DNA from: Oscillospiraceae bacterium
Lineage (GTDB): Bacteria; Bacillota; Clostridia; Oscillospirales; CAG-382
NCBI GenBank assembly: GCA_015064955.1
Contig: SVRD01000007.1
Span: forward strand, 47,189-111,188
Direction of reading: 5' to 3'
Length of the DNA stretch: 64,000 nucleotides
Part shown: positions 45,190 to 62,425 of the stretch, piece by piece
Position numbering within the stretch: the stretch's first letter is position 1
Layout of the letters: the number at the start of each line of letters is the position of its first letter
Made by a program: the position numbers and the translations under genes
Notes under the pieces: model-generated
Databases searched by the model: none
What the model was told of the DNA's origin: nothing
The model's input: the letters and a program-made list of their open reading frames with translations, nothing else

Positions 45190-45261
45190 TGTGTTTGAGC
45201 ATCAAAGCGCTTGTTAACGGCGGCGGTATCTGCCGCACAAACAAATAACAGTATAAAGCAG

Positions 45262-45322
45262 GCCTCGGGATTAGCGTGATACTCCGCTTTGGAGTATCAC
45301 GCTAATCCCGAGGCTTTATTTT
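45262..45322. terminator. Rho-independent terminator with unusually long perfect stem
   Basis: GCCTCGGGATTAGCGTGATACTCC-gcttt-GGAGTATCACGCTAATCCCGAGGC (24-bp stem, 45262-45314) then TTTATTTT. Confidence 0.9.
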
Positions 45323-45456: not shown

Positions 45457-45978
45457 ATGAAGACAAGAATCATCACCAAAAAGTTCACCCTTACCGATGA
45501 CGTACGCGAATGGATCGAGAAGAAGCTCAAGAAATTCGACAAATTCTTCTCCGAGGATACCGAGGCAACTGTCGCCTTAAGCAGTACGAAGCTCGGCGAA
45601 AGGATCGAACTGACCATCTACCGTAACGGCTCGATTTTCCGTTCTGAAGTGTCGGATAAGGATTACAAATGCGCACTTGACACTGCGATGGAGAATATCG
45701 AGCGTCAGATCAGAAAGAACCGCACAAGGCTCGAAAAGAAGATTCACGTCAAGAAGGAATTGTTTGCTGACGTTGATATCGCAGAGGCAGAGGACGAGAT
45801 CGCAATCGCAAAGGTAAAACGCTTTGAGATGCAGGCGATGACGGTAGAGGAAGCGATTCTGCAAATGAATCTGCTCCAGCACAGCTTTTATATGTTCCTC
45901 AATTCCGAAAGCGGCAGATACAACGTTGTATACAAGCGTGACGATAATCAATACGGCGTGATTGAGCCTATTGAATAA
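45457..45978 (+). CDS. hpf: Ribosome hibernation-promoting factor, long form
   Basis: Lrts N-terminal domain (KKFTLTDDVREWIEKKLKKFDKFF) and C-terminal dimerisation domain (KVKRFEMQAMTVEEAILQMNLLQHSFYMFLNSESGRYNVVYKRDDNQYGVIEP). Confidence 0.96.
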   Translation: MKTRIITKKFTLTDDVREWIEKKLKKFDKFFSEDTEATVALSSTKLGERIELTIYRNGSIFRSEVSDKDYKCALDTAMENIERQIRKNRTRLEKKIHVKKELFADVDIAEAEDEIAIAKVKRFEMQAMTVEEAILQMNLLQHSFYMFLNSESGRYNVVYKRDDNQYGVIEPIE

Positions 45979-46001
45979 ACGAATAATAAATAAAAGCCCG
46001 A

Positions 46002-46278
46002 GGGCGATGCGTCACAGTGATAAATCGCCTTAAAACTGCCATTTTTGCACAATACTGCATCAAAAAACTGCGATATACACTCGTATTATCGCAGTTTTTT
46101 TCTTTGTCTTGTAACAAAACTATCAGGTTTTAAGGTGCAAAGCAGTTTTGACCGTATCCGATTTGCCTTGCAACGACGGCAAAAAACGAAGGAATACGTC
46201 CGTATTTCAAGGCTTTTTGACTATGTTGCAGGGTGAAGCGGTAGGACAAAACCGTTTTCTCACTATGACGCATCGCCC
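46002..46278. mobile_element. MITE-like inverted-repeat element (non-coding)
   Basis: Left end GGGCGATGCGTCACAGTGA (46002-46020), right end TCACTATGACGCATCGCCC (46260-46278), inverted with 1 mismatch in 19; left 28 nt recurs at 62382. Confidence 0.75.
46062..46100. terminator. Strong internal hairpin of the MITE-like element
   Basis: AAAAAACTGCGAT (46062-46074)/ATCGCAGTTTTTT (46088-46100) with nested ATAC/GTAT. Confidence 0.6.
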
Positions 46279-46308
46279 AATTGCGGGCTTTTTTGTTTTG
46301 TCTTGATT

Positions 46309-62363: not shown

Positions 62364-62425
62364 AAAAGACCGTCGTGCGAAGGGCGATGCGTCACAGTGA
62401 TAAATCGCCCAACAACGGTCTTTTT
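62364..62425 (+). terminator. Terminator with a REP-like repeat in its loop
   Basis: AAAAGACCGT (62364-62373)/ACGGTCTTTT (62415-62424) 10-bp stem; loop contains GGGCGATGCGTCACAGTGATAAATCGCCC. Confidence 0.8.
62382..62410. repeat. REP-like palindromic repeat, second copy
   Basis: GGGCGAT-gcg-TCAC-a-GTGA-taa-ATCGCCC; 28-29 nt exact match to 46001-46029. Confidence 0.85.

Follow-up and report, generated by a model that had tools for sequence, protein, structure and literature searches.

The 277-bp element downstream of hpf in the 64,000-nucleotide stretch of Oscillospiraceae DNA analysed here (the window) is very probably one copy of a non-autonomous, MITE-like family that inserts into the loops of hairpin DNA, in practice those of intrinsic terminators. 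Many near-identical copies occur at unrelated sites, a pattern that shows the mobility of the family, and the family is strongly restricted to terminator loops. It is best filed as a variant form of MITE.

Anatomy of the element at the hpf site

The long form of the element (46002..46278, + strand) is a two-armed palindrome bounded by terminal inverted repeats (TIRs), delimited by sequence, BLAST copies, fold and covariance. The left TIR, GGGCGATGCGTCACAGTGA (46002..46020, + strand), and the right TIR, TCACTATGACGCATCGCCC (46260..46278, − strand), are each 19 bp long and, on direct reading of the sequence, complementary at 18 of 19 positions. With up to three mismatches allowed, the window contains the 19-bp end three times, against 0.01 occurrences expected from shuffles. 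Fold and covariation define a left arm (46026..46137, + strand), which includes an internal hairpin at about 46064-46098 with compensatory changes between lineages, and a right arm (46142..46255, + strand); the most conserved part, a central motif around AAGGTGCAAAGCAGTTTTG (approximately 46131..46150, + strand), is common to diverged relatives. The longest ORF, and the sole one of at least 60 aa, is 63 aa long with a TTG start. A covariance model of the superfamily, built partly from the hpf-site copy, matches 46002-46278 at 268 bits, and matches both strands of this near-palindromic element. Rfam gave no family match to the element, either in the region or in the relatives, the other matches being to neighbours.

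The upstream gene (45457..45978, + strand), read as hpf from its own protein sequence, has protein homologues in 10 other genomes of the genus, and its terminator is occupied by the element. Sequence, fold and a strict terminator test identify the left arm AAAAGCCCG (45992..46000, + strand) and the right arm CGGGCTTTT (46284..46292), which pair with each other in the fold, the latter continuing into the T-tract as CGGGCTTTTTT (46284..46294, + strand). The left junction is GA (46000-46001) and the right junction AA (46279..46280, + strand). The stretch from arm to arm (45990-46292) folds at -126.3 kcal/mol with RNA parameters (z = -11.6; z = -10.4 with DNA parameters) in the order terminator stem, TIR stem and two arms, and the opposite strand is similar. 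The description in the earlier note of a 277-bp element with 19-bp TIRs differing by one mismatch, an internal hairpin and no credible ORF, placed between two terminator arms, was thus borne out in each respect.

A second copy in the window, found in the end search, is a 29-bp minimal form, GGGCGATGCGTCACAGTGATAAATCGCCC (62382..62410, + strand), and lies in a terminator loop between a left arm AAAAGACCGT (62364..62373, + strand) and a right arm ACGGTCTTTT (62415..62424, + strand), both recognised by sequence and the strict terminator test. Forms of 29 bp may have arisen by deletion between short repeats. These would be either ATCGCC, found close to the left end and again at the right terminus, or the TCACWGTGA boxes; the sequence of the 29-bp forms fits such an origin, although the short form may conceivably move on its own.

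Elsewhere in the window, a very long perfect hairpin with the core GCGTGATACTCCGC..GGAGTATCACGC (45261-45313) forms the terminator 3′ of an S1-domain gene. The same core was seen again downstream of hpf in G005 (L182), and the hairpin may represent a second hairpin family residing in terminators.

Copies in the genus and their restriction to terminator loops

The genome containing the window (G000) is a 1.76-Mb draft, 82% complete. A BLAST search with the element gave 31 matches in this genome, in which the 19-bp end occurs 21 times; they comprise about 11 long or partial copies and several 29-bp minimal forms. The only complete 277-bp copy is that at hpf, the others being 29-bp forms, deletion forms of 167-168 bp, shortened copies and copies that run off the end of a contig. 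The 19-bp end is present in 6 of 24 genomes of the genus, and near-identical full copies, many in number, occur in three other species (G005, G020 and G022), which are Clostridia metagenome-assembled genomes (MAGs) from roe deer colon, sheep rectum and yak caecum; all carrier genomes are draft MAGs, 72-82% complete. Long copies share 97.5-97.7% identity within a genome; between genomes the identity is 97% for G005 and G020, 93% for G000 and G022, and 86% between these two pairs. A search for the exact TIR in 85,462 species genomes gave, outside the genus, only isolated single matches, which look like chance. The TIR had no match in 39 additional genomes belonging to the same family but not to the genus, the element had none in phage and plasmid searches, and a covariance-model scan of the extracted loci revealed no further copy. 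Separately, two shortened copies in G000 (L009 and L010) start at the internal hairpin directly 3′ of a gene, as if this hairpin were now acting as the gene's terminator.

Insertion sites were classified by a strict rule (a stem of at least 6, with 4 GC pairs, an A- or T-tract and a small loop), used instead of an earlier loose stem-energy test that separated the sites from random positions poorly. Nine of the 10 G000 copies with two flanks lay in a terminator loop (A-tract/stem/T-tract) with both arms retained, and 15 of 26 such copies over four genomes passed, against backgrounds of 5.5% for re-paired flanks, 0.59% for window positions and 2.7% for intergenic positions. Compared with the intergenic null, the G000 count corresponds to P of about 1e-13, which indicates an order of magnitude only because the coding mask is crude. 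The failures were mostly long copies in the fragmented assemblies of G005, G020 and G022, with only one terminator arm visible; these are either assembly chimaeras, in which the 277-bp repeat joins wrong flanks, or cases of decay of the other arm. Half-terminator composition was found in 64 of 95 single inbound flanks (background, 7%), and the junction logo, read inwards, passes from A-rich (-20..-11) through GC-rich (-10..-3) to AA/TT, which is half a bidirectional intrinsic terminator on either side of the element. Insertion into a terminator loop with preservation of the stem arms, read by the earlier note from the hpf site, is therefore the rule among the two-flank copies of G000.

Since both host arms and the T-tract are kept and the TIRs of the element prolong the terminator stem, a terminator with an inserted element probably still works. 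Of the earlier idea that terminators serve as a safe target, the targeting is observed, and the harmlessness to termination is probable only.

At five loci, a sister species has an ordinary empty terminator in the matching place. In G002, G006, G009 and G015, hpf is followed by a plain terminator, and the gene that comes next is the same; the convergent gene beside the 62382 copy has a plain terminator at its 3′ end in G020, G005 and G007; and plain terminators were again found in sister genomes at three further loci. G020 has apparently the same stem, ACAAGCTT..AAGCTTGT, at the L019 site with the element absent, and the L155 site in G005 is occupied by a separate insertion that points the other way. 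A further G020 copy lies on the upstream side of hpf, in the interval that separates it from the S1-domain gene; the hairpin at this place in G000 contains no element. These loci are orthologous, not isogenic, and the exact duplication is thus not readable from them. None of the three outcomes that the earlier note named as refuting (a lack of further copies, copies placed regardless of terminators, or sister genomes lacking an empty site) was observed. In the G020 ortholog of the L019 site (L266, G020:C43:14050-14600), the loop of the element-free terminator contains GGGCAATGCTC, possibly a relic of an element end and possibly chance.

The left junction dinucleotide is AA in 33 of 41 cases and the right one TT (inbound) in 26 of 37, so that most copies have AA on both sides, in an orientation fixed relative to the left and right ends. 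Other junctions are TA/TA (L150) and AT/AT in the G014 relatives. The AA/AA junctions are compatible with a 2-bp duplication, which is the simplest reading but falls short of proof because three G000 copies (L004, L007 and L018) have AA/TT and the hpf copy has GA/AA.

A fold conserved beyond the terminal repeats

When the four species are compared, 99.2% of cells are paired, and double compensatory changes occur at 8 of the 93 pairs. Diverged relatives were taken from weak matches (E up to 0.01) with local scores 10-37 sd above shuffles, and came from G014, G015, G002 and G001 within the genus and from two genomes of other families of the order (G038 and G039). Their lengths are 277, 273, 282, 277, 274 and 278 (one 210); the ends of most share 28-57% with the hpf copy (79% in G038), compared with 58-82% for the central motif. 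In the two-armed consensus structure of the superfamily, 63 of 79 pairs show compensatory change, with 90.4% of cells paired versus at most 46% when slid, and a covariation of 0.614 versus at most 0.136. The TIR helix (helix 1) is largely complementary in all relatives, with 93% of its cells paired. Length, central motif and two-armed fold thus persist in the genus and in other families of the order while the TIR sequences differ, an observation that is new here.

Two of these relatives lie within structured host elements. The G038 copy (L037) is in a terminator loop, ACCTTTCGGCA..TGCCGAAAGGT, followed by TTTTTT, and the G015 copy (L035) splits an FMN riboswitch, the interrupted region being L035:1420-1813; the partial riboswitch matches on its two sides score 44.9 and 25.3 bits and fall short of the gathering score, and the ORF downstream looks like a riboflavin transporter from its sequence. 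Around the G014 copies, no obvious hairpin or terminator was found. As a separate observation, the ends of the G001 relative (L043:522-798) resemble a tRNA T-arm (GGGTTCGACTCCCC). We tentatively suggest that the superfamily may constitute a distinct class of small mobile elements across a Clostridia order, the machinery of which would read the fold (a length of about 277, two arms and a central motif) rather than fixed ends and would insert into hairpin loops of transcribed elements (terminators and a riboswitch stem), the stem and the host RNA element being preserved.

Possible mobilising systems and comparison with known elements

We propose the following scenario for the mobility of the family. 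A transposase or recombinase encoded outside the assembled genomes may act in trans, recognising the paired ends or the fold of the element together with a palindromic target. It would cut within the loop at a WA dinucleotide, and 2 bp would be duplicated. The long persistence of the family may result from landing where insertion is costless to the host.

No mobilising enzyme emerged from the families searched (IS30, IS1182 and Y1 transposases and serine recombinases). IS30, IS1182 and Y1 transposases are absent from the 82% complete draft of G000, and the missing IS30 transposase speaks against an IS30 derivative. No autonomous element sharing the TIRs, including the full-length transposase-bearing relative that the earlier note had suggested seeking, was found in the assembled genomes of the genus or family, which are drafts with incomplete carriers. 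A match in G018 (L083) was considered as an autonomous copy and rejected, as no transposase is present and the resemblance is confined to a short end-like stretch next to a hairpin.

The closest precedent is provided by IS1272 and TnSha1 of the IS1182 family, which insert into hairpins, many of them terminators and several of these confirmed, with little or no primary sequence specificity (PMC4923244; PMC5678879). The element may conceivably be a derivative of this type, moved by a hairpin-recognising DDE transposase whose target is either replaced or invaded, and the anatomy of the 277-bp element is that expected from a loop-duplicating pathway sketched as one possibility in PMC5678879 (Fig. 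13, pathway c). However, IS1272 and TnSha1 are autonomous elements with their own transposase, and the target stem-loop is deleted without duplication, whereas the present element has no ORF, keeps the arms and has AA on both sides. Furthermore, an IS1182-type transposase had no match in G000, G005, G020 or G022, and the single match in the genus (G016) was below the family cut-off. The hairpin target is thus shared, but neither the stem-loop deletion nor a transposase in a carrier was found, and such a derivation is rather doubtful.

It is less likely still that a serine-type site-specific recombinase moves a circular form of the element, in which an IR-AA-IR palindrome with a 2-bp core would use AA-centred terminator palindromes as targets. 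The AA on both sides with its fixed orientation relative to the ends agrees with this mechanism, and serine recombinases occur in the carriers G000, G005, G020 and G022, but in the fetched loci no recombinase lay near a matching end and the carriers were not all seen to have any one recombinase family in common. The serine recombinases of G020, G005 and G018 (L210, L211 and L212) are 96-97% identical to one another, a similarity that could reflect recent sharing of a mobile element.

The compensatory changes throughout, the constant length and the resemblance of the internal hairpin to a bidirectional terminator in the G000 lineage might instead indicate a structured RNA or terminator module that is now immobile and vertically kept for a host regulatory or stability role. 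This is improbable, considering that the copies follow unrelated genes at sites differing between sister species and are near-identical within a genome yet absent from most genomes of the genus (the end being present in 6 of 24).

A REP/REPIN-type element mobilised by a Y1 (RAYT) transposase is mostly refuted and very improbable: palindromic, extragenic 29-bp hairpin forms, a fold better conserved than the ends and movement in trans are reminiscent of such elements, but the Y1_Tnp domain is absent in G000, G005 and G020 (one was found in G022), and the unit is long, TIR-bounded and two-armed, with a different target. To our knowledge, hairpin-loop insertion is not a known REP trait. Of the earlier assignment to a non-autonomous mobile or REP/BIME-type family, the non-autonomous mobile family thus stands, and the REP/BIME part is not supported.

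The preferred reading, a MITE-like family, is in line with the definition of bacterial MITEs as intergenic, multi-copy elements of <500 bp with TIRs, no ORF and a stable fold (PMC10969869). The element agrees with it in all these features, having a size below 500 bp without coding capacity, TIRs and dispersed near-identical copies, but differs from MITEs in its restriction to terminator loops and in the conservation of interior length and fold while the TIR sequences change. The usual MITE pattern is the reverse, with conserved TIRs and a variable interior. BOX, RUP and SPRITE of Streptococcus pneumoniae are likewise structured repeats of small size that are enriched near 3′ ends, and SPRITE resembles a terminator (PMC3049150). 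Compared by description, SPRITE is itself like a terminator, whereas the present element lies inside an existing one and leaves its arms in place. Group IIC introns, which are retroelement ribozymes, also insert at terminator hairpins; the element shares this site with them but has no Rfam match or reverse transcriptase and has DNA-type TIRs.

The family offers a case, natural and countable, in which insertion is directed by structure and the arms are preserved, a mode that was proposed but not demonstrated in the cited IS1272 and TnSha1 literature, IS1272 removing its target. In practice, repeats of this kind fragment metagenome assemblies, and they could lead to errors in the annotation of terminators and riboswitches. 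A fold that outlives its own end sequences raises the question of what the mobilising enzyme recognises. Terminator loops offer a safe harbour at nearly every gene, and an element that finds its sites by shape can spread among them harmlessly.
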